Position numbers and translations under genes: made by a program. Shown here one piece after another: positions 13,701 through 29,490 of a DNA stretch of 37,957 nt. This DNA comes from a virus, in IMG/VR virus record IMGVR_UViG_3300035698_004946, positions 1 to 37,957 of that record. One strand, 5' to 3'. Position 1 is the stretch's first letter. Every line of letters starts with the position of its first letter. The notes below the pieces were generated by a model. That model did not search any database, was not told where the DNA came from, and saw nothing but the letters and a program-made list of their open reading frames with translations.

Positions 13701-13800
13701 CACTGACGGTGAATATAATGTATTGGTAATAGCAACTAGAAAGGATGAAGCAGCTATCAAGTACTGGAATGGTGTAGAACGTGAGAAAATTATTGAATAA
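4774..13800 (+). CDS. Giant fibre-like structural protein (3008 residues)
   Basis: This is probably a tail fibre or other long surface appendage, judged by composition and repeats rather than one enzyme domain. It is rich in Ser, Thr, Gly and Asn, with many beta-strand/GS turns and no Cys clusters. Residues about 1-180 form a non-repetitive N-terminal region that may attach to the virion. Residues about 200-1750 look like serial Ig-like or beta-sandwich modules, two of them duplicated. At about 1840-1900 there is a GxxGxVYIGDY...YYYTG segment like those in other phage fibres. Residues about 2036-2360 are 25- and 40-residue tandem repeats. The C-terminus (about 2890-3000, FMIDHP...HSFVESP) resembles a C-terminal module that I recall in many phage and bacterial surface proteins. 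The start is set by GGAG at 4763-4766. Confidence 0.75.
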   Translation: MPRIKRIVEKQNLDQYVVFKEDRSVGSRYFAVTDLPQTLTGGKNGFLITGTRELELGTTVKVEITDVDGNPVYYEVAQGRPQYYEGRSKVVSVWVYDDTPIGQGKITILGELRKYRNESGDLIDIPDEWKDNYNVRWEYPIFINKSLPNETRVRFTSRPIISVTENIVNLKKRVPTIIQNSGSLSGSAGFPKAGHDWSRFNGNTEYKLTISGSTFSELMVPSEGIITVSSLNQTYTTKLKKILSDTEALATTPYFITSSNSIHASSYKEVIADFSDVSFISAYTSESFETDPSNDGTASFATVTITNLETFSGDVHRIKLYRRPIGSTVETDYELVQDQVIEAREELKDDSKTGTEYRTGTFRTQATIDSYWNTSSFFITASNNDSTLFQSVHLTSSATVKEFTSGSTTFPATYTFTTSSASEFLTQILTYESRSHAGTGTFTGSVYYESESISSGATQSFYVSASTEISTPSFIANNGSDNTIFILAEVSSSLAGTSQYTGSTYAYSSSVKNEYGFNNSVETPYVTGSEYNVSFSTIGLGEGSLEVFLSGSSFNNTTGSLGIIDDNHSYGQLIGSVKVGGVRTTLDFSENFEPTYNGTGVLNFVIRGAEWYIGDVSLKEYHETNFSPNQFVTTIQIPTTINDQTYEFKSEFFDVNSNLIDITVVSDKQSFYGGSLFGKSVNFSANRPSFTFNTPDISGSFVLTANPIAQAITFTTSTRGLVTGSITYASQAFDDSGSLIPSASYETSSYVTFLSNATHSVATEANGTGGNYLGTTGSFFVFSANDNVSSGTTFTLSGSSAGVTASIDSTGLYTASLHDDTDSGTVTLSASIADMLYEHTFTVSKDKSGGSEKLIMFASPSPIEYQESGSTIPTSDTVTFTIQQESLSGTIISGDFTVKKNDGTNITTSSLVGSVVGGTGNQTFTSSFYGNNTSSLTLQRSDFPLTASVNRDSITDTCYLFSTFGADVYPGTMTDLTDSGGTMTVANFTGSDNGYTVGNVEITASSEGKYDAVSINTSTDGLSGKQVFIRPVFGTVLKNKDGGDPDNTGNLEIEIVKFVDGRLVSSSVALGNVRLYSASVELNTSFNGIGDGTRLADVRYNAQISGSAITGSLLLTAEDTGSGILWDSITLADLQDGLPAGYVTANTRVFKRDPNTSTYNINSIGLTGSFYIPNKSDGSGTTYNRYVSIDPNWNGSADQMSWSYDTGGTSDIEVIGNDLDGGSVSEDAYATTTDLSLTFTYTDPTYANTMTTEETFYITVEGLDGSGSIDTLAHTILPISGTYFSTNPNSGLHQPAYLEFKTQTTTSGSVTDIISGSTSYLRKQSDNSNITASLPGGTVYRITKDDIDSLEVFEWYSGSALAVVDTISVSDITDGTNSVSYLIRPFFGTVLKNKDGGDPSNAGNLEIQLVKVSGSQEYILNSGDIKLYSASVELVGSMNGISAGTATGSPYNGSGILPYHAQISGSAITGSLTIIAKSGSVVADTITLADLQDGKPAGYISTDSGRTLIRSGSNEYTPSTLGITGSFYIPNQSDGTGVVYSRYVGIDPNWTGTVDQMSWSYEPGGSTDIAVTVSDVDGNSVSEDSYANTKDLSVTFTYVDPTYGTSLTTEETFHVVSDGTDGIAAPSGILNLDDNNRVWQYSPNTGVYTPTDVTNGITASFYIGDTVTATRGWPITISGTNLQTGSENTGLRTDDWANVSIDVDGGGTSNMTIAFTSASITIKEQFTIVSEPRNAFGLSFSPESFVVPAGPTGDVISGLPNTVDVYLYVDGELETDYTTWTWASSSANMSALVATDKETIAVDSFTPSTLETALVSVTASKAYSDYTTTLQGSFTVTKAYQGRQGPGVVYIGDYDDLLANWPLQNDDVRRDIVTHGSTYYYYTGSDGDLKSTISSNNGHPTGSNTTDYWGTFTNFAAVATDILLAQDAYIGKVLNIGTNEVSGEANIALNGGIDSPYISLGQSVQNYAQSGFYLGSGSVSGETLKMSLSGSNGHMIWNGSNLSVKGAITVTGGNVPTTSSISGAFDTVSQSFATSITDQGISITNSYASSSAYSQSFSTDITAQGISITDSFASSSGYSQSFQADLTAQGLTLTSVSQSNEGYSQSFQTDITAQGISITNSYASSSAYSSSAATSITAQGITITANANNVSGAFDGTSSSLATSITAQGISITNSYASSSAYSQSLSTDITAQGISITDSFASSSGYSSSFSTDITAQGISITNSYASSSAYSSSAATSITAQGISITDSFASSSAYSSSAATTVTAQGISITLNETGITDSYASSSLYSSSLADNITSGSNNVSGAFDAVSGSLAGGITDSYASSSLYSSSLADNITSGSNNVSGAFDEVSGSLADDVTNSYASSSAYSSSLAGDLTSASLSIFTTNQGFVWRDAAPTGTGLSLTATELGFHVGSTWTTYMNNDGNFYLNGTGGSGNGLSWNSGTNVLAVSGTIYAIGGTIGGVAVYNDSIQAPNFSLDSSGSLVAKNASFTGFVSASSGEVGGFTLSGTALTSVGGKITLDGSNDSISVRDSNGAARFLANTALTLPDPTAGETLTETSTTTTHAVSWANTGISSSIYVHPVTFSPAPTLTGTYTVSATLGAHASRTVYCGDSAFDGNGIASATVKLQIFNGTTLIAESGTRTITSYSVDQGWNTTVSWTSHKFTVDADLTSGITTYTAQWHIEESGGWFSAKPLSTVPDSSFNLAGETISATLELAKTTINGGGFQAVAAADAYLRVQDSTPAVLVVGQLSVTGSQEISTDLTVGGLTTTDHLTVGSGHSFGASTSNKIVARGSITSEESINALVNGSNNVLAQFLLRDSEGTSNSTGLAIAAVSGSGLAANKVYIAPVYSGSLNFGSEIYYDWTNVRWVVEPSLHVAGTLSKTAGSFMIDHPDPEKTDTHTLWHSFVESPTAGDNIYRFTVDVYDGSGWTLIPDYFHYLNTDVQIWVNAVDHFGRAYGKITPDKNAVRVYADTDGEYNVLVIATRKDEAAIKYWNGVEREKIIE
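7852..8575 (+). repeat. Internal duplicated fibre module, copy 1
   Basis: About 240 residues starting at V1027 of the fibre protein (FIRPVFGTVLKNKDGG) recur 354 residues later. Shared blocks include GTVLKNKDGGDP, LYSASVEL, HAQISGSAITGSL-like text, TLADLQDG, IDPNW, DQMSWSY and TTEETF. Divergence at both protein and DNA level shows that the duplication is old. Confidence 0.8.
8914..9642 (+). repeat. Internal duplicated fibre module, copy 2
   Basis: Second copy of the module, starting at about Y1381 (LIRPFFGTVLKNKDGG) and ending after the TTEETF block near 9642. Differences from copy 1 are spread along its length and there is a short extra segment after the SMNGIS block. A separate run of about 110 residues (8576-8913) divides the copies. 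Confidence 0.8.
10879..11604 (+). repeat. 75-base in-frame tandem repeats (25-residue units)
   Basis: Units of the form ITAQGISITNSYASSSAYS plus a 6-residue spacer repeat every 25 residues. The first two units begin at 10879 and 10954, exactly 75 bases apart. Some copies diverge (LTAQGLTLTSVSQSNEGYS), and one is interrupted by a NNVSGAFD segment. Several copies share long near-identical DNA (for example those starting near 11272 and 11422), which points to recent copying. The regular hydrophobic spacing suits a trimeric fibre shaft. Confidence 0.85.
11605..11844 (+). repeat. Two 120-base in-frame tandem repeats (40-residue units)
   Basis: GITDSYASSSLYSSSLADN followed by ITSGSNNVSGAFD occurs at 11605-11724 and again at 11725-11844, differing at only a few bases. 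A third, diverged partial copy follows (DDVTNSYASSSAYSSSLAG). The units fuse the 25-residue motif with the NVSGAFD segment seen once earlier. Confidence 0.85.
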
Positions 13801-13841: not shown

Positions 13842-16256
13842 ATGAACGAACTTTCTATACAATTAGCAGACTTATTTTTAGTAGACGACGTATTAGAACT
13901 CCTTCCAACTGAAGAAGAAATACTAGAGTATGTGCAAACTGATTCATTTAAAAATGTTTTAGACGAATTGACAAATACTAGCGTAGGCGGTGGATTGTTA
14001 GCAGTTGATGATGGTCCAAACTATCATTACAAAAATCATTCTATTTATAAGAGAGTTACAAAAGAAAGAGCAGAGCAGATTGGATGGTCTGTTATCAACT
14101 ATATTATAGATGGTGCATCTGATGATGATGACAACCCACCAATATATCCAAATGGGCCAGTAGATTCTGTATCATTTTTCCCTGCAGGTGATGCAGGAAA
14201 AAAAACGCCAACAAATCAGCAAGATTTAGTTGGTAGTGAAGCATGGAATAAGTGGTTTACTCATGTTACCAGGCGAGCTGCTATGGTTGGGTATGAATTG
14301 GTAAAAAGCAGAGAAACTAGAATAAATACTGCAGCAGAAAAACGTATAACAAGTAAGCAATCTAAAGCAGATGCAAAAGAAAAGCCACAAATTTCAGAAT
14401 CAGTTACATTATTTGAATATGAATCTGAAGATGGTGATAAGGCAATTACAGAAGATTTAATTCAGTTTGCCATTAAAGAACTTAGCATTAGAGAACGACC
14501 TCCGATAAAATTAACAGATAGCAGAGAAGATATTTCTACTACTGCTTATTATAATCCAATGTCATTTGACATTAAAATTTATACCAAAGGAAGAGCGCTA
14601 GCAGATTATCTAAGATCAGTAGTTCATGAGTTAGTTCATCATAAGCAGAATGAAGATGGTAGACTTGGGGCTATTGCAGAAGACGGAAGTAAATGGGCAA
14701 TAGATCAAACAGATCCATTAGAAACAGAAGCACATGCGCTAGCTGGGGATATCATAACCAAATTTAAGAAGGTTTCAGAAAAGAACATATATCTAAATGA
14801 AGCAATTAGTATAGACGTAAAAATTGGTGATACGATATTAACTGGCAAATTTAAAAATAAGAAAACTATAGTAAAGGCCATTGGAACAGATGAGCATGGA
14901 ATGCCAACAATAAACGGAAGAAAGGTTGTAACATTTAGAAAGGCTAAACTAAACGAAAATCCAGATTGGGTTGGTAGTTTAGTTCAATATGATGAGCGAG
15001 ATGCAAGAGCCTTTAGCTCATATAAGGGAAAAACGTATGTTGCAAGAAATCATGATACATATCATGATGAATTATCAATGCATTTATTGGATGAAGATTT
15101 TATAGATGAAGATGAGTTTGATTTACTACCAACCGATAGAGATGATTGGGAATATCCAGGTAGAATTTGGATAAGACGTAAGGTAATATCATTTTGGAAA
15201 TATCCACCAAATAAGTCAGTATTATTAAAAATACTAAAATCAATTGAACGTCAATTGAAAATTAAAATTATTGGCAATAAATACAAATTAGAAATATATC
15301 TTGGAAAGAAGACAGCAGGAAAGGATGAAAAGGGAACTAGAATTATAAAACCTTCTGAGTATACTGGAAGTAATACTGCTAAGGGAATAGATATTGATCA
15401 TGGAAAATCTCCTATGATTAAAAAGAAAAAGAAGATTCAAGGTAAATTGGGTTCTGAAAAACCAATTAGAGGTGCTAGACGTGGAGAAACACCGGCTCAG
15501 ACTCGTAACAGACTTGGTATAAATGAAGATATTCCTTCAGACGTATTGAACAGCTTCAAAACTCAGGATTCACTAAATCCTAAAATTTGGAATGATAGCA
15601 AACTAAAATCAGATGTTCGCACCAAACTGCTAATAATAGCAGAAGAATTTTTTGAAGGATTAGAATTTAATGAAGGTGTAAAAATACAAGACATTACACT
15701 TACTGGAAGTATTTCAAATTTCAATTGGTCTAAATTTTCTGACATAGATCTTCATATTAGAATTAAATTTTCTGATATAGACGAAAACGAAGATTTAGTT
15801 CGCAATTTAGTATTGGCTAAGAAGACTGTATGGAATACAAAGCACGATATTAAGATTCATGGGTTTCCTGTAGAAGTATTTGTAGAAAACATTGGAGAAA
15901 CTCATATAGCGTCTGGTCTATATTCCATAGTAAAGGATAATTGGATCAGTGTTCCTAACAAAGACGTGTCTACTATTGATATAGATGATGTAGTCAGCAA
16001 GGCAGATAATTTTATGAGAATGATTCCAATTTTAGAAGGTTATATGAATGACGCTAAATATGATAAGGTAATTAGTGCAATTGAAGATATTCAAGATAAG
16101 TTAAAAAGAATGAGACAAAGCGGATTAGAATCTGGTGGGGAATTATCTGTAGAAAATCTTGCATTTAAAGCTTTACGAAGATCGCCATTCATTCAACAAA
16201 TTGTCGATATGAAAAAAGACGCATACGACAAAAAAATGACAATAGAGCAGCAATAA
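13842..16256 (+). CDS. Multidomain protein: zinc metallopeptidase motif plus nucleotidyltransferase motif
   Basis: This 804-residue protein has at least two enzyme-like domains. HELVHH at residues 262-267 is the HExxH zinc-peptidase motif, with E294 or E296 in LETEAHALAGD as a plausible third ligand. Near the C-terminus GSISNFNW (G622, S623) and DIDLH (D634, D636), with E678 in FPVEVF, form the GS...DxD...E pattern of polymerase-beta-type nucleotidyltransferases. The remainder is an acidic N-terminal helical region, an unassigned middle (about 375-490), a very basic linker (about 515-555) and a helical tail. Sites ISES (184), LNEA (318), LNEN (370) and INED (560) sit between domains and resemble prohead-protease sites. 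Its place among late genes and its upstream ATATTTATA motif suggest a virion-associated role. The substrates are unknown. Confidence 0.7.
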   Translation: MNELSIQLADLFLVDDVLELLPTEEEILEYVQTDSFKNVLDELTNTSVGGGLLAVDDGPNYHYKNHSIYKRVTKERAEQIGWSVINYIIDGASDDDDNPPIYPNGPVDSVSFFPAGDAGKKTPTNQQDLVGSEAWNKWFTHVTRRAAMVGYELVKSRETRINTAAEKRITSKQSKADAKEKPQISESVTLFEYESEDGDKAITEDLIQFAIKELSIRERPPIKLTDSREDISTTAYYNPMSFDIKIYTKGRALADYLRSVVHELVHHKQNEDGRLGAIAEDGSKWAIDQTDPLETEAHALAGDIITKFKKVSEKNIYLNEAISIDVKIGDTILTGKFKNKKTIVKAIGTDEHGMPTINGRKVVTFRKAKLNENPDWVGSLVQYDERDARAFSSYKGKTYVARNHDTYHDELSMHLLDEDFIDEDEFDLLPTDRDDWEYPGRIWIRRKVISFWKYPPNKSVLLKILKSIERQLKIKIIGNKYKLEIYLGKKTAGKDEKGTRIIKPSEYTGSNTAKGIDIDHGKSPMIKKKKKIQGKLGSEKPIRGARRGETPAQTRNRLGINEDIPSDVLNSFKTQDSLNPKIWNDSKLKSDVRTKLLIIAEEFFEGLEFNEGVKIQDITLTGSISNFNWSKFSDIDLHIRIKFSDIDENEDLVRNLVLAKKTVWNTKHDIKIHGFPVEVFVENIGETHIASGLYSIVKDNWISVPNKDVSTIDIDDVVSKADNFMRMIPILEGYMNDAKYDKVISAIEDIQDKLKRMRQSGLESGGELSVENLAFKALRRSPFIQQIVDMKKDAYDKKMTIEQQ

Positions 16257-16270
16257 AAAGGTTATAGGTT

Positions 16271-16918
16271 ATGTTAATAAAGGTAAAGGACGGTACGTAC
16301 AATAAGACAGATTCTAGAAATAAGATGCATAAGTCGCGTCGTAAAATTCTAGATGTAATGAATGGCGATTACAGAAAGGACACATTTGGATGGACCGAAT
16401 CTCAAGATGATCGCCAAGAGCGATTGAGCAGAGAAGAAGAAAATAGAAGAGCTAAATCTGAAATTTTTAAAGAGTTTAGAGTACCTTCTTTTTGTCCTAA
16501 ATGTAATCAGCATATGAAGAACAAATTTGATACCAAATTCTACTATAGAACTGGACATTGTTTCACATGTCAACAAGATTTTGAACACAAACTTAGGGTT
16601 ACTGGATTGTATCCACTATGGGAACGTATTAAAGTTTTTGAAAACGAAATTTCAATTTTAACTGAGTTAAAGGTACAATTTACAGAAGCACTATCTGAAG
16701 ACTCAGATTCTAAATCAGAATTAGTATCAGCTAACGGTATTATAACAGGATTTGAATTTGCAGGCAATTGGGAAGCCATAAGAGATGGAATTCAGACCGA
16801 ATTGGATGATATCGTATATATACTACCAGAAGCTAATAAAGAATTAAACCGCATGCGACAAGAATTGGTGATCAAAGATGATGAAAAAATTGTGGAACAA
16901 TATAGTACTAATCGGTAG
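16271..16918 (+). CDS. Zinc-ribbon protein of unknown function
   Basis: A 215-residue protein I do not recognise. A likely zinc ribbon is formed by C75-x2-C78 (CPKCNQ) and C97-x2-C100 (CFTCQQ). The region before it is strongly charged, and the region after it is predicted helical and rich in Glu. There is no signal or membrane segment. AAGG and AGG before the ATG give a weak ribosome binding site. It follows the metallopeptidase/nucleotidyltransferase gene by 14 bases and overlaps the next gene by 41 bases, so the run down to terL is probably one late transcript. Confidence 0.7.
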   Translation: MLIKVKDGTYNKTDSRNKMHKSRRKILDVMNGDYRKDTFGWTESQDDRQERLSREEENRRAKSEIFKEFRVPSFCPKCNQHMKNKFDTKFYYRTGHCFTCQQDFEHKLRVTGLYPLWERIKVFENEISILTELKVQFTEALSEDSDSKSELVSANGIITGFEFAGNWEAIRDGIQTELDDIVYILPEANKELNRMRQELVIKDDEKIVEQYSTNR

Positions 16919-17198
16919 TGGAATACTATTTCTAATAGTTGCGTTTTTGTATTTAACTAGAGGAGACGCAGATGCAGTTAAGGAAAAGTATCAAGAAATG
17001 GTAAATAAAAATAGAGGTCGACGCGACGCCCTATACGAACGAGAAGTAGAGACTGCAGCCAATAAGGCAAAGGCAAAGTCAGAGTTGAAGGATATTCAAA
17101 ACAAGGCTAAGATTATTGAAGATAGGATAAACTCTAGAACTCCAGATAAGACTGGAAACGCAATTGATGATTTTCAAAGAAAGTATGGTAATGAATAA
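16878..17198 (+). CDS. Small membrane-anchored coiled-coil protein, possible inner-membrane spanin
   Basis: About 106 residues with one N-terminal transmembrane helix (about 8-27, NIVLIGSGILFLIVAFLYL) after a short basic start. A long charged helix follows, rich in Lys, Glu and Ala, with no further hydrophobic segments. This N-in, coiled-coil-out design is that of phage inner-membrane spanins (Rz type), which span the periplasm in lysis. The next gene encodes an exported helical protein, which fits a pair, but no lysin or holin is adjacent. The function is therefore inferred from topology only. Two ATGs stand in tandem at 16878 and 16881. Confidence 0.65.
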   Translation: MMKKLWNNIVLIGSGILFLIVAFLYLTRGDADAVKEKYQEMVNKNRGRRDALYEREVETAANKAKAKSELKDIQNKAKIIEDRINSRTPDKTGNAIDDFQRKYGNE

Positions 17199-17613
17199 TA
17201 TGAAAAAGATTCTATTAGCATTGCTGTTTGTTTTAATGCTAGGAGTTCAAAATGTACAGGCCCAGGATAGCACAGATACGGTAACAATTCCTAAAACAGA
17301 ACTTCAAGCGTTTTTTACTCAAGTAGATTCGCTGCAAACTGATAATGCAGATTTACGAACTCTACTTGGTTTTAAGAAATTAGAAATTAGAAAATTAGAG
17401 TTTATTGTAGAACAGGATAGTCTACTACTAGGATTTAAGGATCAACGTATTCGGCTGCTAGAAGACGAAATACAATCACATACTGATTATATAACACATC
17501 TAGAGAAGAGAGGTTGGAGACAAAGCAAGGTATTGTGGTTTTTAAACGGTGCAGCTACCATACTGGTATCCTCTATAGTGTTACAGAACATTAATAGTTC
17601 AGGAGGAAACTAA
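17191..17613 (+). CDS. Exported coiled-coil protein with C-terminal membrane segment
   Basis: The protein starts with a clear Sec signal peptide (KKILLALLFVLMLG, then VQAQD as the likely cleavage region). A helical middle segment with heptad-like Leu spacing follows (LRTLLGFKKLEIRKLEF, IRLLEDEI). A hydrophobic segment near the end (VLWFLNGAATILVSSIVL) may be a transmembrane helix. There is no lipobox cysteine, so it is not a classical outer-membrane spanin. I chose ATG 17191, with AAAGAAAG upstream; ATG 17200 is also possible. Longer starts at 17164 or 17167 would place charged residues before the signal peptide. It overlaps the previous gene by 8 bases and its stop overlaps the terL ATG. Confidence 0.7.
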   Translation: MNNMKKILLALLFVLMLGVQNVQAQDSTDTVTIPKTELQAFFTQVDSLQTDNADLRTLLGFKKLEIRKLEFIVEQDSLLLGFKDQRIRLLEDEIQSHTDYITHLEKRGWRQSKVLWFLNGAATILVSSIVLQNINSSGGN

Positions 17614-19241
17614 TGGCAGAAAAACAACAATCATTACAGGATATAATAAAGCAGGAATATAAAAACTGCATGATAGATCCTGCCCATTTTGTAAGGAAGT
17701 ATTGCAAAATTCAACATCCTATTCGAGGTAGCATTTTATTTAAAATGTTTCCATTTCAGGAAGATGCACTAAAGGACTTCCAAAATCACAGGTTCAATGC
17801 AATTCTTAAGAGTCGACAAACTGGGATATCAACACTAACTGCAGCTTATGCGCTCTGGTTGATTCTGTTTCATGATGATAAGAATGTATTAGTGATTGCA
17901 ACAAAACAAGACACTGCGAAAAACCTAGTTACGAAGGTTAGACATATGCATTCAAATCTTCCAGTATGGCTAAAGGGAAAGGCACTAGAGGATAATAAAT
18001 TGTCATTGCGATTTGCAAATGGTTCTCAAATAAAGGCAATTTCATCATCAGGAGAAGCAGGACGTTCTGAAGCGCTATCTCTTCTTATATTCGATGAGGC
18101 AGCGTTTATTGATAAGATTGATGAAATTTGGAAAGCATCGTCTTCGACTTTAGCAACGGGTGGAACTGCAATCGCTGTATCTACTCCAAACGGAATGGGA
18201 AATTGGTTCCATCAAACATGGCAAAAGGCACTGGCTAAAGAAAAAATAGAAACTAAGAATAACGTTATTACATGGAACCCAATTAATATTCATTGGTCAC
18301 TCCATCCAGAACGTGATCAAGACTGGAGAGATCAGCAGACTGAATTGTTGGGAGAAAAGGGATCAGCTCAGGAATGTGACTGCGATTTCATTGCGTCTGG
18401 TCATACTGTAATTCCTGGTGAAGTAATTCAATTTTATAAAGACACATATGTAGAAGAGCCATTAGAGAGACGAGGAATGGGATCCAATTTATGGGTTTGG
18501 GAACCTGTAGATTATAACAGAAAAATGGGATATCTAGTTGTGGCTGACGTTGCAAGGGGTGATGGTGCAGATTATTCTGCATATCATGTTTTCGATCTAG
18601 AGACAATGACGCAGGTAGCAGAATTTAAAGGTAAGGTTACTACCAAAATCTTTGGAAATATGTTACTGTCAATAGCAACAGAATATAATGATGCCCTTCT
18701 TGTAGTAGAAAACGCAACAGTAGGTTGGCATGCGATTCAGGTTGTAATAGATAGAGGATACCCAAATCTATTTTATATGTCTAACGATTTAAAGTATGTA
18801 GACGTAGAACACCAAATGAATATTAATAAGTATGATCCTGATACCAAAATGGTAGCAGGATTTACTACATCTGCAAGAACTAGACCACTTATCATTTCTA
18901 AGTTAGATGAATACTTCAGAGATAAAGCAGTAACGATTAAATCAATACGAACTATAGAAGAATTATTTACCTTTAATTGGCTTAATGGAAAGGCACAAGC
19001 CCTTAGAGGATATAATGATGATTTGGTAATGCCATTGGGCATAGGATTATGGGTAAGAGATACTGCAATAAAACTTAAACAAGAAGGAATAGATTTGACG
19101 GCAGCAGCAATTAGTTCAATATCAGTTAAACGTCCATATGATGGAATGTATAACAGTTTAGACTCTACTGGTGGTAGTGATCCATACAAAATGGACGTAG
19201 GTAATGGTGACGAGGAAGATTTGCGCTGGCTATTAGGGTAG
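17613..19241 (+). CDS. terL: Terminase large subunit, DNA-packaging motor (gp17)
   Basis: This is the ATP-driven motor and nuclease that packages DNA into the prohead. The N-terminal ATPase shows SRQTGIST (residues 67-74) as a variant Walker A like that of T4 gp17, LLIFDEAAF (D161, E162) as Walker B, and STPNG as the coupling motif. The C-terminal RNase H-like nuclease has VVADVARGDGADYS with D312, a middle acid in VVENATVGW, and D469/D470 in YNDDLVMP. Its 542 residues are slightly fewer than in T4 gp17. AGGAGG upstream of the ATG is the strongest ribosome binding site in this block. Portal gp20 follows directly; the sheath and tube genes 18 and 19, which lie between them in T4, are absent here. 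Confidence 0.95.
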   Translation: MAEKQQSLQDIIKQEYKNCMIDPAHFVRKYCKIQHPIRGSILFKMFPFQEDALKDFQNHRFNAILKSRQTGISTLTAAYALWLILFHDDKNVLVIATKQDTAKNLVTKVRHMHSNLPVWLKGKALEDNKLSLRFANGSQIKAISSSGEAGRSEALSLLIFDEAAFIDKIDEIWKASSSTLATGGTAIAVSTPNGMGNWFHQTWQKALAKEKIETKNNVITWNPINIHWSLHPERDQDWRDQQTELLGEKGSAQECDCDFIASGHTVIPGEVIQFYKDTYVEEPLERRGMGSNLWVWEPVDYNRKMGYLVVADVARGDGADYSAYHVFDLETMTQVAEFKGKVTTKIFGNMLLSIATEYNDALLVVENATVGWHAIQVVIDRGYPNLFYMSNDLKYVDVEHQMNINKYDPDTKMVAGFTTSARTRPLIISKLDEYFRDKAVTIKSIRTIEELFTFNWLNGKAQALRGYNDDLVMPLGIGLWVRDTAIKLKQEGIDLTAAAISSISVKRPYDGMYNSLDSTGGSDPYKMDVGNGDEEDLRWLLG

Positions 19242-19301: not shown

Positions 19302-21086
19302 ATGGCAAACAAAAGCTTTAATGCAAGATTAAAAAGATTATTCTCAAACGGATCTGTAGTTCGTGTAGTAAGCAAGGGCAGTGGAAAGGGAATAAAAGTA
19401 TTTGACGCAAATAGTAGTCAGCTAATGCCTAAGGGTAGTTGGAAGCAAAGACATGCATCCATATATAGAACTCCTGGCGCCCAAGGTAGGGATCAAACTG
19501 GAGTATTTCAAGCAACCAGATACCACCTATTCAGGGATTATGAAGGAATGGATGCTGATCCAATTATTGCATCAGCAATAGATATGTATGCAGAAGAATC
19601 TTCATTGGAAGATGAGTTTGGTCAAATCTTAAAAATTACCACATCTAATAACGATGTGAAGCAAATTCTTCATAATCTATTTTATGATATTCTAAACATC
19701 AATTTCAATTTATCTGCATGGATTAGAAATTTATGTAAGTATGGTGATCTGTTTTTAAAACTAGAAATAGAAGAAGGAATTGGAGTTATAGATGTAATTC
19801 CACTTTCAGTATACGAGATAATACGAGAAGAAGGATACGATATAGAAGATCCTAAGGCTGTTAGATTTATTCATGATATATCAGGAGCAACAACATATTC
19901 AAGTAATCAAGCAACTACATACGATGATTACGAAATGGCCCATTTTAGATTGGGTACAGATTCAAATTTCCTTCCATACGGAAAGGCTATTGTTGAAAAC
20001 ATACGTAGAATTTGGAAACAAATAAAACTTATGGAAGACGCAATGATGGTTCATAGAATCGTTAGAGCTCCTGAACGTAGAATGTATAAAGTAGATATTG
20101 GTAATATTCCTCCTAAGGATGTAGAAGGATATATGCAGCGTCTTATGCAAAAGACTAAAAAGGCATCGCTGATGGATCCCAATACAGGTGAATACAATTT
20201 AAAATTTAACATTCAAAACCTGTTAGAAGATTTCTACCTTCCAGTTCGTGGTACTAAGGATGGCACATCAATTGAAAATCTTCCTGGATTGGAATATCAA
20301 ACAGTAGAGGATATTGAATACCTACAAAAGAAATTATTTGCAGGTCTTAAAATTCCTAGAGCATATCTTGGCTATGAAGAAGATACAAGTGGAAAGGGTA
20401 CATTAGCTCAAGAGGATATGAGATTTGCTAGAAGTATTAGAAAGGTTCAGAGAATTGTTGTATCTGAACTTTCAAAAATAGCAATAGTTCATTTATATGC
20501 AAACGGATACACGGATAAGGAGTTAATAGACTTCTCATTGGAATTAGCGATGTCTTCTACCGTGTACGAACAGGAGCAAATTAGAATTTGGCAAGAAAAG
20601 GTTCGACTTGGTGATGATATTAAATCCGGACAGCTGTTGTCAGTAGATTGGATTTATGAAACTATTTTCAAACTATCTGAAGACGATATTGTTAGAGAAC
20701 GATTGAGATTAGTGAACGATGCAAAATTCAAATATAGATTGGATCAGATAGATTCTGATGGAAATGATCCTGCAAAATCTGGTCAACATGTAGTTGGTGG
20801 TCAGGCAATAGATCCATTTAACGGAGAAGATGAAGATAGCGATGATGTATCTGGATTCTCCGGAGAAGATGAAGATGCAGAAGATTTTGAAAACGATGAA
20901 AAATATAAACAGGGTGGAAGACCTAGAGGAAATCAAACTAAGTATGCTACAGATAAGCATGTACTAGGAAGAGACCCTATAGGTAGAAATTCAATTTCAA
21001 TGAATGAAATTAAAAGATTGATTGGTGGAATGAATAGCGCTAATCTTAATTCTAAAGGACTATTAGATGAGAGCAATATTATATAA
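19302..21086 (+). CDS. gp20: Portal vertex protein (gp20)
   Basis: The portal dodecamer is the DNA entry point of the head and the assembly initiator. This 594-residue protein matches the T4 gp20 family in length and recognisable segments: FRDYEGMDADPIIASAIDM, EESSLEDEFGQ, NLCKYGDLFLKL, LEDFYLPVRG, LPGLEYQTVEDIEY and LFAGLKIPRAYLGY. The last 100 residues are acidic and low in complexity (DEDSDDVSGFSGEDEDAEDF), as is common in marine relatives. It is preceded by an ATATTTATA motif and no clear ribosome binding site. Its neighbours terL and the prohead cluster fit the head-assembly role. Confidence 0.93.
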   Translation: MANKSFNARLKRLFSNGSVVRVVSKGSGKGIKVFDANSSQLMPKGSWKQRHASIYRTPGAQGRDQTGVFQATRYHLFRDYEGMDADPIIASAIDMYAEESSLEDEFGQILKITTSNNDVKQILHNLFYDILNINFNLSAWIRNLCKYGDLFLKLEIEEGIGVIDVIPLSVYEIIREEGYDIEDPKAVRFIHDISGATTYSSNQATTYDDYEMAHFRLGTDSNFLPYGKAIVENIRRIWKQIKLMEDAMMVHRIVRAPERRMYKVDIGNIPPKDVEGYMQRLMQKTKKASLMDPNTGEYNLKFNIQNLLEDFYLPVRGTKDGTSIENLPGLEYQTVEDIEYLQKKLFAGLKIPRAYLGYEEDTSGKGTLAQEDMRFARSIRKVQRIVVSELSKIAIVHLYANGYTDKELIDFSLELAMSSTVYEQEQIRIWQEKVRLGDDIKSGQLLSVDWIYETIFKLSEDDIVRERLRLVNDAKFKYRLDQIDSDGNDPAKSGQHVVGGQAIDPFNGEDEDSDDVSGFSGEDEDAEDFENDEKYKQGGRPRGNQTKYATDKHVLGRDPIGRNSISMNEIKRLIGGMNSANLNSKGLLDESNII

Positions 21087-22021: not shown

Positions 22022-22796
22022 GGAAAATCTAGAAAAGATTTTTTCAATGGTAGATACCAAATTAAAAACTCCTACTGTAGAATCAGTAGAGAGTTTATTT
22101 GCATCTATTGGGTTAAACGAAAAATCTGCAAAGGATATTACTTCAAAGTATATGGTCAGAAGACAATTAGAAGATACTGATGAAGAAACTGTTGATGAAA
22201 TGACAGCTCAGGCTTCAGTAGCAGGATATAATGTTCCTGGTGCATTTTCTGGAAAGAAGAGTCGCAAAAAGAAAGATTCAGATGATGCTAGAATTGCTCA
22301 CGGAACGGTGTCTAAGCAGATTCATGGCAAGGCAGACAATATTAATGAAGCTAAAGGTAATATAGATTATATCAATAACTTCAGCAAGGTAACAAACGCA
22401 ATGTTTGCGCTTCAAACTAATATCATAGACCTTAAGTTATTGGACGTAATTGATAAATCATCATATCGCAGATTTAATGATATGGTAGATGAATACAGAG
22501 CCGTAAAAAAAATTATAGGAACTCAAACTAAGAAAAATAAATCTAAATTAAACGAGGTTTCGTATAGAGCCCTTAAGAATGATGAAACACGATCTCCTAG
22601 ACAAAAAATTGGAAAGACTATTAAGGAAATTAGTGGTAAGTTATATAGAATAGAACGCGCAGTAAAACAATTGAAAAAATTAAAAACAGAAACAGGAGTA
22701 ACTCCAGATACTTATTGGAAATCTACTCATGTTAAAATGAATAAGATTAGTGAGCGTATTCTTAAACTAGCTAGAAATCTAAGGGAGATGAAATAA
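22002..22796 (+). CDS. Unassigned prohead-region protein, possible core component
   Basis: A 264-residue protein with an acidic N-terminal third and a basic helical remainder. The segment MTAQASVAGYNVPGAFSGKK followed by a Lys/Arg run looks like a flexible linker, and INEAKGN (about residue 113) is a candidate prohead-protease site. The last 120 residues are highly charged helices (QKIGKTIKEISGKLYRIERAV). AAGGAG precedes the ATG with good spacing. It overlaps the preceding gene by 20 bases and its stop shares bases with the next ATG. The function is unknown; position between gp20 and gp21 suggests a head-core protein. Confidence 0.75.
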   Translation: MSQKVNKENLEKIFSMVDTKLKTPTVESVESLFASIGLNEKSAKDITSKYMVRRQLEDTDEETVDEMTAQASVAGYNVPGAFSGKKSRKKKDSDDARIAHGTVSKQIHGKADNINEAKGNIDYINNFSKVTNAMFALQTNIIDLKLLDVIDKSSYRRFNDMVDEYRAVKKIIGTQTKKNKSKLNEVSYRALKNDETRSPRQKIGKTIKEISGKLYRIERAVKQLKKLKTETGVTPDTYWKSTHVKMNKISERILKLARNLREMK

Positions 22797-23695
22797 TGAA
22801 TAAAGGCAAATTAAAGCAAATAGTTAAAGAAATTGCAAACGAACAATCTGATTATCATAATTTTATTATGCAAATTTTAGATAAGGTTGGATCTGATAAA
22901 TTTAATAATATGCCAGAAAGCTCACAACAGAAGCTATTTACAGATATAGACGAACGTTGGAATTCTAAAAAGGAATCTTCAAAACTAAGCGAATCATACA
23001 AGGTAGGTAAGGCTAGAAAGGTTGGAGATAAGGTTAAAGTTAGATCTATAAGATCTGGAAGAATTAAAACATATACGATAAGTAAAATAGTTAAACCTAG
23101 AGAAAAGTATGAAGCTAGTAATGGTAAGTTTATCTACCAACAGGATATAGACTGGGATGACAAATTAGATAAAAATTTAAATGAATCTTCAGAACTAAAC
23201 GAAGGTGCAACATATAAAGATCTTGGAAAACTTAGAAATGATCTTAGTATTGTAATTGATGACATATTAGCCGGAGTCAGGGGTCAAAACGGATCTGCAG
23301 ATACAAAACTTAAAGGAGTTGGTAAAATTGTAAAACCTTTAGTTGCAATTAGAAAGGAATTGCAAAATTTATCTAAGGTGATTAAAACGCTTGGAACTGA
23401 TGATGAAGATCGTAAAATTTATGTAAGATCTGGACATTCTATTAAATTGTCAGAAGTTGTAACTGAAGAAGAAATTCCTGGTGGAGTTTCAAGTGGAAAA
23501 AATCCACAAGAAATTGCAGATATGCATGGTGTTTCTTTAGATCAAATTCACAGCCAACTTAAAATTGGCACTAAAGTAGAATTAGAACATACTCCTAATT
23601 TAAATATAGCTGCAGAAATTGCGTTAGATCATTTAGTTGAAGATCCAGAATATTACGATAAATTAGCAACAATAGATCCACATGAAAATAACTAA
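22796..23695 (+). CDS. Prohead-region protein with C-terminal DUF5661-like domain
   Basis: A 299-residue protein. The last 70 residues (GTKVELEHTPN, IAAEIALDHLVEDPEYYDKL) read like the DUF5661 family, a short conserved domain of unknown function that I recognise from its ELEHT...ALDHL...YYDKL pattern. The N-terminal part includes a KOW/SH3-like stretch (GDKVKVRSIRSGRIKTYTISKI). Between them lie LSES (about 64), LNES (128) and LNEG (134), which resemble prohead-protease sites and would separate the domains. GGGAG precedes the ATG. It shares bases with both neighbours, so it belongs to the same translational run as the prohead genes. Confidence 0.75.
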   Translation: MNKGKLKQIVKEIANEQSDYHNFIMQILDKVGSDKFNNMPESSQQKLFTDIDERWNSKKESSKLSESYKVGKARKVGDKVKVRSIRSGRIKTYTISKIVKPREKYEASNGKFIYQQDIDWDDKLDKNLNESSELNEGATYKDLGKLRNDLSIVIDDILAGVRGQNGSADTKLKGVGKIVKPLVAIRKELQNLSKVIKTLGTDDEDRKIYVRSGHSIKLSEVVTEEEIPGGVSSGKNPQEIADMHGVSLDQIHSQLKIGTKVELEHTPNLNIAAEIALDHLVEDPEYYDKLATIDPHENN

Positions 23696-23859: not shown

Positions 23860-24474
23860 ATGAAAAAACTACTATTAGAATATATGCCGTTTCAATTTGA
23901 AGTTCAGTCAATGAATGAAGCTATTACTGAAGATGGTAATGGAATGTTTATTGTAAACGGAGTTCTTCAAAGAGCAGACGCAAAAAATCAAAATGGAAGA
24001 ATATATCCAAAAGATATTCTCGTAAGAGAGGTACGTAAGTATCACCAAAATTTTGTATCTAACAGAAATGCGCTTGGTGAATTAGATCATCCGGAATCAT
24101 CTGTTGTAAACTTAAAAAACGTATCACATAACGTAAAGGAGATTCATTTTAAAGGTGATGATGTTATTGGTACCATTGAGGTTCTCCCAACCCCAAGCGG
24201 AAACATTCTTAAGAAATTGTTTGAAAGTAATATCACATTGGGTATTAGTAGCAGGGGAATGGGATCAGTACGCCCACTAGGTGAAGGAACACTAGAAGTT
24301 CAGGACGACTTTGAACTAATTGCATTTGATTTCGTATCAAATCCAAGCACGCATGGGGCGTTTCTAACCCCGGTAAATGAATCTGTTGGAATCACTGATG
24401 AAGAACGATATATGTGTAACGAATATTGCAGATCACAAGATATTATGAGAAATATCTTAATGGAACTACAATAA
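23860..24474 (+). CDS. gp21: Prohead core protease (gp21, peptidase family S80)
   Basis: This serine protease cuts scaffold and internal proteins during T4-type head maturation. Family blocks are clear: VLQRADAKNQNGRIYP, NALGELDHPES with catalytic H77, TLGISSRGMGS with candidate nucleophile S130 or S131, and ELIAFDFVSNPS. Length (204 residues) is close to T4 gp21. The N-terminus contains LLLEY and MNEAITED (residues 18-25), which could be self-processing sites. It is surrounded by its likely substrates: the small proteins on either side, the scaffold and the capsid protein. The ATG follows a purine-rich AGGGGG with long spacing. Confidence 0.93.
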   Translation: MKKLLLEYMPFQFEVQSMNEAITEDGNGMFIVNGVLQRADAKNQNGRIYPKDILVREVRKYHQNFVSNRNALGELDHPESSVVNLKNVSHNVKEIHFKGDDVIGTIEVLPTPSGNILKKLFESNITLGISSRGMGSVRPLGEGTLEVQDDFELIAFDFVSNPSTHGAFLTPVNESVGITDEERYMCNEYCRSQDIMRNILMELQ

Positions 24475-24491
24475 CAATTAGAGAAACTAAG

Positions 24492-25164: not shown

Positions 25165-25479
25165 ATGAAAACTAAAACATCAATAGAACTTCTATCAGAG
25201 CAAATTTCAGGTGGTATGAGATTAACATCGTTTAACGAAGCTGCATACCCTAAAGGAGTACCTAGAGAAATTACTGTAGGTGACAAGGGTAAGACTTCAC
25301 TAGGTGGTACATTCAAAGTTACTAAAATACTAATTGTGTACCATTCTAATGGTAATACTTCTAGTACAGTTTGGTACCAGATAACTTTATCTAATGATCA
25401 CCCTACCAGACCAAATGCAAAATTTAACGAAAGTAATCTTTCTGAAGAATTCTTTCGATTGATAATGAACGAGTACTAA
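25165..25479 (+). CDS. Small protein with shared N-terminal tag, candidate internal head protein
   Basis: The first 27 residues (MKTKTSIELLSEQI ... FNEAA) are nearly the same as those of the gene at 25552, while the remaining 75 residues are unrelated. The tag has LSE at 10-12 and FNEA at 23-26, both fitting a gp21-like cut after xxE. The body is a short beta-rich domain (GGTFKVTKILIVYHSNG, WYQITLS) of no recognised family. Placed just after gp21 and before the scaffold, it most resembles a T4-type internal protein carrying a targeting peptide. The ATG follows the previous stop by one base. Confidence 0.7.
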   Translation: MKTKTSIELLSEQISGGMRLTSFNEAAYPKGVPREITVGDKGKTSLGGTFKVTKILIVYHSNGNTSSTVWYQITLSNDHPTRPNAKFNESNLSEEFFRLIMNEY

Positions 25480-25550
25480 TGCTAGATTACATAGATTTCC
25501 TAGATCTTACGGATGGTATCGTAAAAGTAATTAAATCGTATATTAAATAA
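25479..25550 (+). CDS. Possible 23-residue micropeptide
   Basis: The ATG at 25479 overlaps the preceding TAA (TAATG), and the frame runs MLDYIDFLDLTDGIVKVIKS to TAA at 25548-25550, one base before the next ATG. It neatly fills the whole gap between the two tag-sharing genes and forms an amphipathic helix. Translational coupling would be expected. Its small size makes chance a real alternative. Confidence 0.35.
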   Translation: MLDYIDFLDLTDGIVKVIKSYIK

Positions 25551-25551
25551 T

Positions 25552-25881
25552 ATGAAAACTAAAACAACAATAGAACTTCTATCAGAACAGATAGCATCTG
25601 GAATGAAATTAGGATCGCTAAATGAAGCAGTAGACTCAGTTACGAAATTCGCAGTAGTCTTATCAGGAGGTTCAATCGGTGAGAAGAATATACGTAACGT
25701 AAGAGATCTTACTGGAATAAAAGTTCCTGATGGAGAAAATATCTTTGAAGAGTATGCTGATGCCCAAGCTAAGATGAAACGCATGAACAAACTTCTAACT
25801 CCTGGTGAAAAGAAGTATTATAAGTTACGTTATATCGTAGCCGCATCTAAAGATAGTGTATTCACTGGAAAAAATAAATAA
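25552..25881 (+). CDS. Small protein with shared N-terminal tag, second copy
   Basis: The start MKTKTTIELLSEQI ... LNEAV repeats the tag of the gene at 25165 at both protein and DNA level. The remaining 80 residues differ: GGSIGEKNIRNVRDLTGIKV, then a charged helix with EEYADAQAKMKRMN, and a C-terminus KKYYKLRYIVAASKD. The body is not recognised. LSE (10-12) and LNEA (23-26) are at the same positions as in the first copy, which supports a functional processing or targeting signal. A domestic duplication of the 5' end, or replacement of the cargo domain behind a constant tag, would explain the pair. Confidence 0.7.
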   Translation: MKTKTTIELLSEQIASGMKLGSLNEAVDSVTKFAVVLSGGSIGEKNIRNVRDLTGIKVPDGENIFEEYADAQAKMKRMNKLLTPGEKKYYKLRYIVAASKDSVFTGKNK

Positions 25882-26148: not shown

Positions 26149-26179
26149 AAAGTATTTTAATTTTCTGTTAATATCGTGT

Positions 26180-26188
26180 ATACTTATA
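26180..26188 (+). promoter_or_regulatory. ATACTTATA, one-mismatch late motif before the scaffold gene
   Basis: The 125-base gap 26149-26273 is the largest in the head cluster and precedes the highly expressed scaffold and capsid genes. ATACTTATA differs at one base from ATATTTATA and lies 85 bases before the ATG. A downstream AACGAATACCT also occurs in the leader before the fibre gene at 37670. Confidence 0.35.
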
Positions 26189-26273
26189 ACTAACGAATAC
26201 CTATTACTATAGTGTAACACGACACAAATCTATATTGAAGTCACTTAATTGCTTCAGAGAAAAAGAGAAACAA

Positions 26274-27275
26274 ATGAGTGACTTGCTTAAGGAAGCTGTT
26301 GCAGAAGCGAAGTTAGTTCGCGAGACAGCCCTTGAAAATGCCAAACTGGTATTAGAAGAAGCTTTTACTCCAAAACTCCAATCAATGTTATCTAGAAAGC
26401 TACAGGCTGAAATGGATGATATGGATGATGATGATTACGAAAGTGATGATGAAGAGGATGGAGATGAAGTAGACGAAGCTAAATCAGAAAATGCAAACGA
26501 GACTAAAGCCGAAAATGGTGAAGTAGTTGATGATGAAGAATCAGACGACGAAGGCGAATCGATTGACGAAGATGAAGCAGTAGTAGAGAACGAAGACGAA
26601 GACGAAGCTGGGGATGATGACGAAGAAGATGATGACGATGGTCTTGATCTTGACGAAATCATAGCAGAATTGGAATCAGATGAATCTGTAAATGAAGATC
26701 ACAACGATGGCGATGAAGACGACGAAGTCGAATACGATGAGGAAGACGATACCGTTGACGAAAGTGATGATGCAGACGAAGATGATGAAGATGATGAAGA
26801 CCTTGACTTAGACGAAATCTTACGTGCTCTAGACGAAGCGGAAGAATTAGAAGAAAAAGAAGATTCAACACGAGAGCTTGAAACACTGCGTACCGAAAGG
26901 GTAGAACTTCAAGCTTCTTTAAAAGAACATCGTGACGTTGTAATATTCCTTAAGGATAAAATCAACGAAGTGAATCTTTTAAATTCGAAACTTTTATTCT
27001 CAAATAAATTGTTCCGTGCTTTCGATATGGACAATGCACAAAAATCACAAGTTATTGAAACTCTTGACAGAGCGAATTCAACACGTGAAGTTAAGCTTGT
27101 ATATGCAACCTTAGCAAAAGCATTTCCTAATTCGGTAGCCAAACGCGTTAAGATTTCTGAAGGATCAAGTTCTAAGACTATAGCATCGACTAAACCCAAA
27201 GCTGTAGACAAAGAAATTATCTCAGAAGTTAACATGCGTACGAGATTCCAAGAATTAGCTAACATTAAATCATAA
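26274..27275 (+). CDS. gp22: Prohead core scaffold protein (gp22)
   Basis: This is the internal scaffold around which the capsid assembles. I chose ATG 26274, preceded by AAAGAGAAA, over an upstream TTG at 26235 that adds a run without family character. The opening MSDLLKEAVAEAKLV and the segment AFTPKLQSMLSRKLQAEM are typical of marine T4-like scaffolds. Residues about 50-195 are extraordinarily acidic, long Asp/Glu runs with Ser and Ala. The C-terminal third is a helical region (LRTERVELQASLKEHRDVVI). Position immediately before gp23 matches T4. Many potential cut sites (LxE, AxE) are present, as expected for a protein removed by gp21. Confidence 0.88.
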   Translation: MSDLLKEAVAEAKLVRETALENAKLVLEEAFTPKLQSMLSRKLQAEMDDMDDDDYESDDEEDGDEVDEAKSENANETKAENGEVVDDEESDDEGESIDEDEAVVENEDEDEAGDDDEEDDDDGLDLDEIIAELESDESVNEDHNDGDEDDEVEYDEEDDTVDESDDADEDDEDDEDLDLDEILRALDEAEELEEKEDSTRELETLRTERVELQASLKEHRDVVIFLKDKINEVNLLNSKLLFSNKLFRAFDMDNAQKSQVIETLDRANSTREVKLVYATLAKAFPNSVAKRVKISEGSSSKTIASTKPKAVDKEIISEVNMRTRFQELANIKS

Positions 27276-27288
27276 AGAGGAAATAACA

Positions 27289-28899
27289 ATGAATACACAA
27301 GATATTCAAGGACTATTAGAAAGTTCAAATAACATTCAGCAACAAATTCTAGAGGCAACTCGCGGATTGAAGGCTAAATGGGAACCAACTGGACTTCTAG
27401 AAGGCTTTAAAACAGATTACGAAGCTCGTGGTATGGCCGTACTTCTGGAAAACCAAGCACGTCAATTGATTGACGAAACCACAAACGTTGGTAATTCCAA
27501 CGGCGCTGAACAATGGAATGGTGTAGCTCTTCCGCTTGTTCGTCGCGTCTTTGGTGAAATTGCTGCAAAAGAATTTGTATCAGTACAGCCAATGAATCTT
27601 CCATCCGGACTAATCTTTTATCTAGATTATAAGTATGCGACAAACCAAGCAGGTAAGCCTGCATATTCTGGCTCGTCACTATTCGGTGGAACAGGTCTTG
27701 CAGAAAATCGTACACAGACTGCTACTGGTGGTCTATATGATGCAGGTCGTTTCGGATATACATCGAACAACTCACAGGTAACAATGGTTGCATCTCCTAC
27801 AGACACTACGGCGTCTTGGAAAGATGTAAACTTTGATGCAGATCTTTCAGCTTCTGCTGCAGCAGGTAGACTTCATAAAGTTACCTCAGCTCTATCAGGA
27901 TATACACGTCCAGACTTAGAAGGCATTCGTGCTTTTGAAATCTCAGGATCAAATTTTGCTGCTGCTCAGAGTTACTATCCACGATATACTACTGTAGACG
28001 CTACAAACGTTTACTTTATTGTATCCGGATCAGCACCAATTACGCAAGTAGTTGTTGATTACCATGTGCAGCCTACGGATTCAACCCGTGGCGACTTTGA
28101 AGATCAATCAGACGGTACTGGAACTATTACTGACCTTGGAATTCCACAGGTTGATATGGAACTACGTAGCGAGCAGATTGTTGCGAAAACCAAAAGGTTG
28201 AAGGCAAGTTGGACACCAGAAATGGCACAAGACTTGAACGCGTATCACTCAATCGACGCAGAAGCAGAGCTTACTACATTGCTTAGTGATCATATCTCTA
28301 GAGAAATCGATCTAGAAATTCTTGATATGCTTATCAAGGGTGCACAGACTGTTGAATATTGGTCAGCTAAGGTTGGCTATGAAATCAATTCGGATCAAAC
28401 GGCATTCGTCGCGGATTCTAGTTCAGCATCAGCGTCAGCATACCAGAAAAATACTTGGTTTGCCACTCTAGGAATCAAATTGCACAAGGTATCTAATATC
28501 ATCCATCGTCTAACGATGAAGGGTGGGGCTAACTTCCTTGTAACATCTCCGGATGTAGCAACGATTCTAGAATCAGTTCCAGGATTCAATGTTAATACGG
28601 ATGGAAACTCAGCACAGTTTGCTGCTGGTGTTGAAGCTGTAGGAACAATTAGAAACCGTTATACGGTTTACAAGAATCCTTACATGGTTGAAAACGTAAT
28701 CCTTATGGGATATAAAGGCGCTTCATTCATGGAAACAGGTGCAGTGTACGCTCCATACGTACCACTTATCCAAACACCTGTTGTTCTGGATCCGACCAAC
28801 TTCACACCACGTAGGGGAGTTATGACCCGTTACGCTAAAAAAATGATTCGCCCAGAGTTTTACGGGAAAGTATACGTTGGTGATATGGACCAAGTTTAA
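27289..28899 (+). CDS. gp23: Major capsid protein (gp23)
   Basis: The HK97-fold capsid protein of T4-like phages, 536 residues. Recognisable blocks are GMAVLLENQARQLIDE, VALPLVRRVFGEIAAKEFVS, VQPMNLPSGLIFYLDY, LKASWTPEMAQDLNAYH with IDAEAEL, EIDLEILDMLI, and the ending RYAKKMIRPEFYGKVYVGD. The N-terminus (MNTQDIQGLLESSNN, then QILEATRG) is far shorter than the roughly 65-residue region removed from T4 gp23. LLE/S or ILE/A are possible cleavage sites. Residues about 115-290 hold a Ser/Ala-rich insertion that may be surface-exposed. AGAGGA gives a good ribosome binding site. A strong terminator follows 35 bases after the stop. Confidence 0.95.
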   Translation: MNTQDIQGLLESSNNIQQQILEATRGLKAKWEPTGLLEGFKTDYEARGMAVLLENQARQLIDETTNVGNSNGAEQWNGVALPLVRRVFGEIAAKEFVSVQPMNLPSGLIFYLDYKYATNQAGKPAYSGSSLFGGTGLAENRTQTATGGLYDAGRFGYTSNNSQVTMVASPTDTTASWKDVNFDADLSASAAAGRLHKVTSALSGYTRPDLEGIRAFEISGSNFAAAQSYYPRYTTVDATNVYFIVSGSAPITQVVVDYHVQPTDSTRGDFEDQSDGTGTITDLGIPQVDMELRSEQIVAKTKRLKASWTPEMAQDLNAYHSIDAEAELTTLLSDHISREIDLEILDMLIKGAQTVEYWSAKVGYEINSDQTAFVADSSSASASAYQKNTWFATLGIKLHKVSNIIHRLTMKGGANFLVTSPDVATILESVPGFNVNTDGNSAQFAAGVEAVGTIRNRYTVYKNPYMVENVILMGYKGASFMETGAVYAPYVPLIQTPVVLDPTNFTPRRGVMTRYAKKMIRPEFYGKVYVGDMDQV

Positions 28900-28934
28900 T
28901 CTTAATTGATTAGATAAATACTTAAAGATTAAGA

Positions 28935-28963: not shown

Positions 28964-28976
28964 GTTTTGTTGAAAC

Positions 28977-29005: not shown

Positions 29006-29022
29006 TCATAATAGGTAAATCA

Positions 29023-29235: not shown

Positions 29236-29273
29236 ATTCAGCAGGCAAACCTAGAATTTTAAAGTGGAAAAAA

Positions 29274-29486: not shown

Positions 29487-29490
29487 CAAT

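Follow-up and report, generated by a model that had tools for sequence, protein, structure and literature searches.

Does a single phage protein bring several enzymes into the head as one chain, to be split apart by the protease that matures the capsid? The question is raised by an open reading frame (ORF) at positions 13842-16256 (+ strand) of the virus record IMGVR_UViG_3300035698_004946, which comes from a T4-like phage seen only in environmental DNA; all 37,957 bases of the record were analyzed and are called the window below. The ORF begins with ATG and is open over 804 residues, and many stops interrupt the one reverse-strand frame that was translated across it. The initial annotation had seen in its product a HELVHH motif with a downstream Glu, the GS...DID...E signature of a polymerase-beta-type transferase and the words ISES, LNEA, LNEN and INED between the apparent domains, and had proposed a late virion protein that is cut by the T4 prohead-protease rule to release a two-enzyme cargo. 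We put at roughly 70% the probability that this polyprotein is both cleaved by the prohead protease and packaged in the head. A 94,980-base twin contig is identical to the window over 22,412 bases (100% in the stretch fetched).

Modular architecture of the 804-residue protein

The gene is almost certainly modular. Its product is a short form of a mosaic polyprotein and consists of about five parts, designated D1 to D5 (Table 1); relatives have more. The two enzyme domains of the initial annotation do share one chain, but the protein belongs to a mosaic family and is not a two-enzyme oddity. Scans of the whole protein with PADLOC and NCBIfam gave no match, D1 has no match in Pfam, and searches of a phage collection with D1 and with D4 found nothing.

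Both catalytic signatures were borne out by alignment. In D2, HELVHH occupies residues 262-267, and H262, E263, H266 and the downstream Glu, E294, are invariant in 9/9 aligned rows, the window included; these rows comprise free-standing proteins of the cyanophages S-SRM01 and B23 as well as a 907-residue protein of Flavobacterium phage immuto. Comparison of D2 with Pfam returned YgjP-like only (E 0.079, below the family cut-off), and its matches to PDB sequences were weak. In D5, GSISNFNWSKFSDID at residues 622-636 forms the GS...DID of the transferase, and G622, S623, D634, D636 and the third acid, E678, are invariant in all 31 rows. A predicted model of residues 373-804 is confident from about residue 563 onward, with confidence below 50 across most of residues 373-543. 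Its structural matches include nucleotidyltransferases such as 2rff (Z 7.2, root-mean-square deviation 3.9, 102 residues aligned) and AadA 4cs6 (Z 6.3, 5.4, 143 aligned), both below the safe level of the tool; the top rows (Z 7.8, 7.5 and 7.3) were other proteins matching only the C-terminal helices, and the best Foldseek match in the PDB had an E of 3.1e-3. A full-length alignment of the polyproteins was set aside, D1 and D2 being misplaced in it.

The chain starts with MNELSIQLADL. Variants of this leader, MN[EK]LSxFLVE, were present at 12 of the 14 N-termini printed for relatives (22 matches in all), where a cytidylyltransferase/NMNAT-like module follows that is absent from the window protein. 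We propose that the leader targets the polyprotein to the head.

Cut-site words at the module borders

T4 gp21 cleaves after L/I-x-E (PMC9026906; here and below, citations refer to parts of the papers concerned). ISE186, LNE320, LNE372 and INE562 were confirmed where the initial annotation had placed them, between parts of the chain. Its proposal that they fit the T4 rule gained support from the gp21-type protease encoded in the window and from an enrichment of [LI]xE at the borders of related proteins. For the latter comparison, the best 80 of 191 D3 relatives in viral contigs and the best 80 of at least 572 D5 relatives were kept, and 105 relative proteins were reduced by shared words to 44 non-redundant ones, which include the window, immuto and one megaphage and 13 of which end at contig edges.

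Alignment ends had been tried as module borders and were dropped, because they were too numerous (550 in the 44 proteins) and control motifs rose too. Because that test was unspecific, borders were instead defined by 12 named modules in the 44 proteins, with a flank of 15 residues, which gave 137 upstream and 135 downstream borders. The resulting figures are descriptive, because modules and flank width were chosen after reading the sequences and the borders come from related proteins: [LI]xE was found within 15 residues upstream of a module at 105/137 borders and downstream at 82/135, compared with 5% of interior windows, while the corresponding values were 68/137, 57/135 and 19% for the reversed motif, 14/137, 18/135 and 18% for [LI]xD, and 32/137, 33/135 and 36% for [LI]xK. 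The border Glu is also exact in position, at -8 before D3 in 27/27 cases, at -8 before the zinc ribbon in 11/11 and at -1 before a ligase-like module in 23/25, and E320 is invariant in all 16 rows of an alignment of D1-D3 junctions.

Within the window protein itself, [LI]xE occurs 17 times against 10.1 expected, a count reached by 17 of 1000 shuffles, which is weak evidence alone. Site words were rejected as proof by themselves, since 13 of the 17 stand away from the four borders. The narrower [LIMF]NE occurs five times against 0.6 expected (2/1000 shuffles), one of the five being the start MNE and another FNE611 inside the transferase. The ten genes that start at 21152 and end with that of the major capsid protein contain 14 such words against 2.5 expected (0/1000) and two of the reversed motif against 2.5, compared with one against 1.5 in gp17, gp20 and three neighbours. 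The 19 other window genes showed no enrichment of NE sites (5 against 6.3 expected); the sets of 11 head and 19 other genes were named by us and leave out short ORFs, mostly those in 25927-32080.

These results bear on the alternative that survives best, an uncut multidomain protein of the virion or the infected cell, in which [LI]xE would mark acidic linkers or relics of N-terminal leaders. The linkers are Glu-rich, the reversed motif is likewise commoner at borders than in the interior, and [LI]xE words are also found inside domains. However, upstream of modules the forward motif shows a rise of about 15-fold, compared with about 2.6-fold for the reversed motif and none for [LI]xD; the Glu keeps an exact position before three modules; and the other head genes have an excess of NE sites that gp17, gp20 and their neighbours lack. 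We therefore regard an uncut protein as unlikely.

Mosaic relatives and a shared slot

The initial annotation had suggested a search for split versions of the gene, and both split and rearranged versions were found. Among 107 matching ORFs (some contigs were fetched twice), D1 is followed by D3 in 61 and by D3 and D2 in six; D3 stands alone in 27 and D1 in eight, two have D3 before D1, one has D2 and D3, and two belong to the twin of the window. Proteins with D1 and D3 are about 700 to 2,106 residues long. The modules seen in relatives are CTP_transf_like, PolyA_pol/CCA-adding, HD, Hint, zinc ribbon, DUF5661 (five matches), D2 and D5, besides a further C-terminal module with a weak RNA_ligase signal (5/12 members, best E 0.011), for which no significant relative was found among PDB sequences. 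This module has KxDG/EG motifs, presumably ligase motifs. Of six over-long proteins, five were included in the family scans (L036 was left out), and alignment A3 used 15 of the 16 listed fragments, without L091. The 94,980-base twin gave no match to the ligase-like alignment, nor to the cytidylyltransferase family in a search run without a positive control.

Module order varies: D1 and D3 are adjacent with D2 hundreds of residues further on in L025, and D5 precedes D2 in L126, yet the same module keeps the same border next to different neighbours. The best explanation would be that whole modules are exchanged at this locus in the course of evolution, each bringing its border sites along. Its place in the genome is shared as well: of 41 non-redundant relatives, 26 have a zinc-ribbon and/or TerL homologue after the polyprotein gene on its strand, and for seven of the remaining 15 the available sequence ends within 1.5 kb. 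Peptidase_S77 was present in 15 of 24 contigs with relatives that we chose, and the nine without it are records of 7.9-77.6 kb, maybe fragments.

Some relatives have features of their own. Hint/intein-type matches occur in L046:3163-7266 and L092:1903-7065, and in L046 the interruption of the ligase-like module comes directly behind the EK of its EKxDG motif; inteins often sit at such active-site positions. The 1,110-residue protein L126:2778-6110 has HELEH and HELVH, both zincin motifs, on the same chain as D5 and a stretch resembling DUF5661. The immuto protein gp088 (L008:6261-8984) is annotated as nicotinamide mononucleotide adenylyltransferase; this database name fits a single part, as the protein also has two zincin motifs (HEMIH and HEIEH) and, in its N-terminal region, a transferase-like motif.

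Homologues in virions

Evidence on packaging comes from cyanophage S-CREM2. Its gp156 (126012-126725) is a homologue of D5 (31.5% identity; phrog_36119, E 3.1e-90) and its gp154 a cytidylyltransferase (phrog_395, E 2.4e-59), of the same family as the N-terminal module of the five polyproteins scanned. Mass spectrometry of caesium chloride (CsCl)-purified S-CREM2 virions detected gp156 with six unique peptides (15.2%), gp154 with three (11.2%) and gp155 with five (14.5%) (PMC10665884 Table 3). According to the S-CREM2 authors, the capsid may enclose the cytidylyltransferase (PMC10665884), and the cytidylyltransferase cluster T4-GC190 is listed among cyanophage virion proteins (PMC3037559).

Proposed processing and its alternatives

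We propose that the short N-terminal leader would bring the polyprotein into the prohead core, where the gp21-type prohead protease of the phage would cleave it in trans after [LI]xE at the borders E186, E320, E372 and E562; the same protease should likewise cut the capsid and other head proteins. D1, the zincin peptidase, the small domain D3, D4 and the polymerase-beta-type nucleotidyltransferase would become separate modules that remain beside the DNA in the head and are probably delivered to the host when it is infected, to act ahead of any phage gene expression. We consider it highly probable that the borders are cut, and the packaging of the polyprotein in the head merits the same confidence. 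Injection of the products is probable, while the chances that they act on the host or its defence are about even.

Several observations weigh against this processing. The 15 residues that follow the matched part of D1 contain no [LI]xE (0/18), nor do those behind the matched part of the Lys/Arg-rich module (0/11), and the motif precedes HD in only 2/9 cases and D5 in 5/10 (8/9 and 7/10 when V, M and F are allowed). The first, looser test with alignment ends raised the forward motif 2.4-fold, the reversed one 2.0-fold and [VY][NSAT]E 2.65-fold. The 13 words away from the four borders would have to be hidden. As to whether the sites fall inside folded cores, which the initial annotation had named as a refutation, E562 is located where model confidence climbs at the start of the transferase, but the model of residues 1-420 is poor (mean predicted local distance difference test score, pLDDT, 40.9), and E186, E320 and E372 were for this reason judged by comparison of relatives. 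Furthermore, TATAAATA, which we take to be the T4 late-promoter word, is absent from the + strand of the window and not enriched (8 on the - strand against 6.7 expected in all); of the claim that the protein is late, synteny with terminase and head genes is the part that stands, and the status of the gene is drawn from that synteny only.

The virion data also have another side. The S-CREM2 transferase is a separate gene and not part of a polyprotein, and the gp156 and gp154 counts, low beside the 165 peptides of the capsid protein (PMC10665884), may reflect carry-over. Stand-alone D5 is the commoner form (63 of the 80 ORFs kept have at most 343 residues), the N-termini of stand-alone forms have no excess of [LI]xE (19/56, versus 147/348 control ORFs), and D5 often lies near replication genes in the named phages looked at. 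Since the N-termini show no site excess and replication genes are neighbours, D5 is no general head protein, and its packaging may be a peculiarity of some T4-like phages. The same three features would suit a non-virion enzyme of the infected cell that is encoded beside the terminase by chance. However, the presence of gp156 and gp154 in purified virions (PMC10665884), the shared slot and the border sites speak against such an enzyme, which we hold to be quite improbable.

A third possibility is that the embedded zincin D2 cuts its own chain, in line with the autoproteolysis by such domains proposed for polyvalent proteins (PMC5512222), and the HExxH...E signature in D2 is complete. Yet HExxH was seen in only 10 of the 44 proteins and not in 34, although some of the 13 chains cut by contig ends may have lost it and other peptidase types are possible. 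Border [LI]xE is nearly as common in proteins without HExxH (80/108) as in those with it (25/29), so that the sites appear to be independent of whether the chain has a zincin of its own, and self-processing is very improbable. Hardly credible is a core or scaffold protein with relic enzyme folds that, in the manner of gp22 or gp67, is cut up and does not remain in the head: gp21 does cleave T4 core proteins into several pieces, most of which are lost from the head (PMC9026906), and other modules are less regular ((H/T)xGH in 15/22 cytidylyltransferase-like matches), but zincin and transferase keep their catalytic residues without change even in distant relatives, and the CCA-adding motifs are present in 8/8 matches.

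If the polyprotein is indeed cut and packaged, injected proteins of environmental T4-like phages would be undercounted, one annotated ORF yielding several free enzymes, and the border sites would let packaged domains be read from sequence. The locus would then be a natural model for equipping a T4-type head with several enzymes behind a single leader, and it would also supply candidates for counter-defence enzymes that act at time zero. A further-reaching idea, which we find doubtful, is that the exchangeable slot beside the terminase in some T4-like phages is an enzyme-kit locus: whole modules, exchanged along with their cut sites, would enter the head as one chain, be separated by the capsid protease and reach the host by injection at time zero, where they would repair tRNA or nicotinamide adenine dinucleotide (NAD) destroyed by host defences and modify host proteins. 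The kit would comprise an NAD-nucleotide adenylyltransferase-like module, a CCA-adding enzyme, an HD hydrolase, a possible RNA ligase, the zincin and the polymerase-beta transferase, and the capsid protease would play the part that a polyprotein protease has in an RNA virus, with cargo as its substrate.

Comparison with known systems

The polyprotein would join two known kinds, which are the nearest to it: the internal head proteins of T4 (PMC9026906, PMC12373910) and the polyvalent proteins of phages and conjugative elements (Iyer et al. 2017, PMC5512222). IPI, IPII, IPIII and Alt of T4, together with gp21, resemble the window in the T4-type head genes, the gp21-family protease and the L/I-x-E rule; the internal proteins have a short N-terminal leader, of which the start of the window protein would be the counterpart, and Alt, an ADP-ribosyltransferase, is an enzyme cargo injected with the DNA (PMC9026906). 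In contrast, T4 cargo comes from separate genes trimmed at their ends, whereas the window protein has several unrelated domains on one chain with sites between them. Polyvalent proteins, like the window protein, combine unrelated domains in one chain near packaging genes; they include zincin peptidases and polymerase-beta transferases, and proteolytic release has been proposed for them, by a peptidase within the chain (a zincin, or an assemblin-like one at the C terminus) (PMC5512222). The window family differs in its border sites for a separate prohead protease and in the 34/44 chains without visible HExxH.

In the giant phages phiKZ and SPN3US, a gp21 homologue cuts inner-head proteins after short xxE words and the propeptides are thought to target the head; the cuts described remove propeptides, and the release of several enzymes from one chain is not among them in the parts of the source concerned (PMC5694885). 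The two S-CREM2/T4-GC190 homologues of polyprotein modules, gp154 and gp156, are separate genes between uvsW and primase/nrdA and not a polyprotein beside the terminase. No description of a multi-enzyme polyprotein cut by a prohead protease was found in the literature searched, which did not extend to subscription papers and preprints.

Two isolated phages carry versions whose module sets differ from that of the window, making the proposed processing testable. WWT39297 of Microcystis phage Mel-JY01 has 639 residues and two modules joined by IAE, and lies upstream of a zinc-ribbon relative (E 2e-6), the terminase and the prohead protease. The 907-residue gp088 of immuto, with its two zincin motifs, is encoded two genes upstream of a zinc-ribbon relative (E 2e-11). 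Peptidase_S77 was found in both genomes.

Genome neighbourhood

The features of the window are collected in Table 1. For DUF5661, which is part of the polyprotein in some relatives and of a separate head-region gene here, no paper turned up in the literature search.

Table 1. Parts of the polyprotein and neighbouring genes in the window
Feature	Position	Strand	Basis and remarks
Protein of 3,008 residues with internal repeats, probably a tail fibre	4774-13800		Directly upstream of the polyprotein; no Pfam or PHROG match
N-terminal peptide MNELSIQLADLFLVDDV, proposed head-targeting leader	13842..13892	+	Leader variants in relatives; targeting inferred
Module D1 (residues 43-186), function not assigned	13968..14399	+	Relatives in 19 viral contigs, one of them the identical twin of the window; ends ISE186 (14391-14399)
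Module D2 (residues 187-320), zincin-type metallopeptidase	14400..14801	+	HELVHH 14625-14642, E294 14721-14723; ends LNE320 (14793-14801)
Module D3 (residues 321-372), small domain, called "barrel" by impression only	14802..14957	+	191 relatives in viral contigs; ends LNE372 (14949-14957)
Module or linker D4 (residues 373-562)	14958..15527	+	Sole relative in a search of viral contigs is the twin of the window; ends INE562 (15519-15527)
Module D5 (residues 563-804), polymerase-beta-type nucleotidyltransferase	15528..16253	+	phrog_36119, E 1.1e-40; GS...DID 15705-15749, E678 15873-15875
Zinc-ribbon-like gene marking the slot downstream of the polyprotein	16271..16918	+	Weak Pfam zinc-ribbon matches, best E 0.017
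Two small overlapping genes between zinc ribbon and gp17, possibly lysis genes	16878-17613		First: weak Rz-like spanin match, E 0.0058
Large terminase gp17	17613..19241	+	Terminase_6N, E 8.1e-18
Portal protein gp20	19302..21086	+	phrog_213, E 3.3e-62
Head-region gene with LNE130, LNE136 and DUF5661 module	22796..23695	+	DUF5661, E 1.3e-14
Prohead protease, Peptidase_S77, gp21 type, proposed cutter	23860..24474	+	Pfam E 9.9e-28; phrog_207, E 2e-54
Two small genes with common leader MKTKT.IELLSEQI..GM.L.S.NEA, internal-head-protein-like	25165..25881	+	Sequence; NE sites at residue 25 in both
Acidic protein right before gp23, probable scaffold	26235..27275	+	Position and composition only
Major capsid protein gp23, putative cut site IDE63 (27469-27477)	27289..28899	+	Gp23, E 5.4e-76

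In the major capsid protein, E63 is invariant in 12/12 aligned N-termini, the window included (gp23 was obtained from 11 of 15 contigs searched). The putative site IDE63 is taken as the counterpart of the T4 gp23 cut, which is reported to remove 65 residues (PMC9026906). The proteins encoded at 25165-25479 and 25552-25881 have a leader of about 25 residues in common that ends in NEA, after which they diverge, a pattern as would be expected of internal head proteins with a common targeting leader. The ORF at 24426-25163 is listed from an upstream TTG; an internal ATG gives MNLKDFFLTEA..., a better leader-like start.

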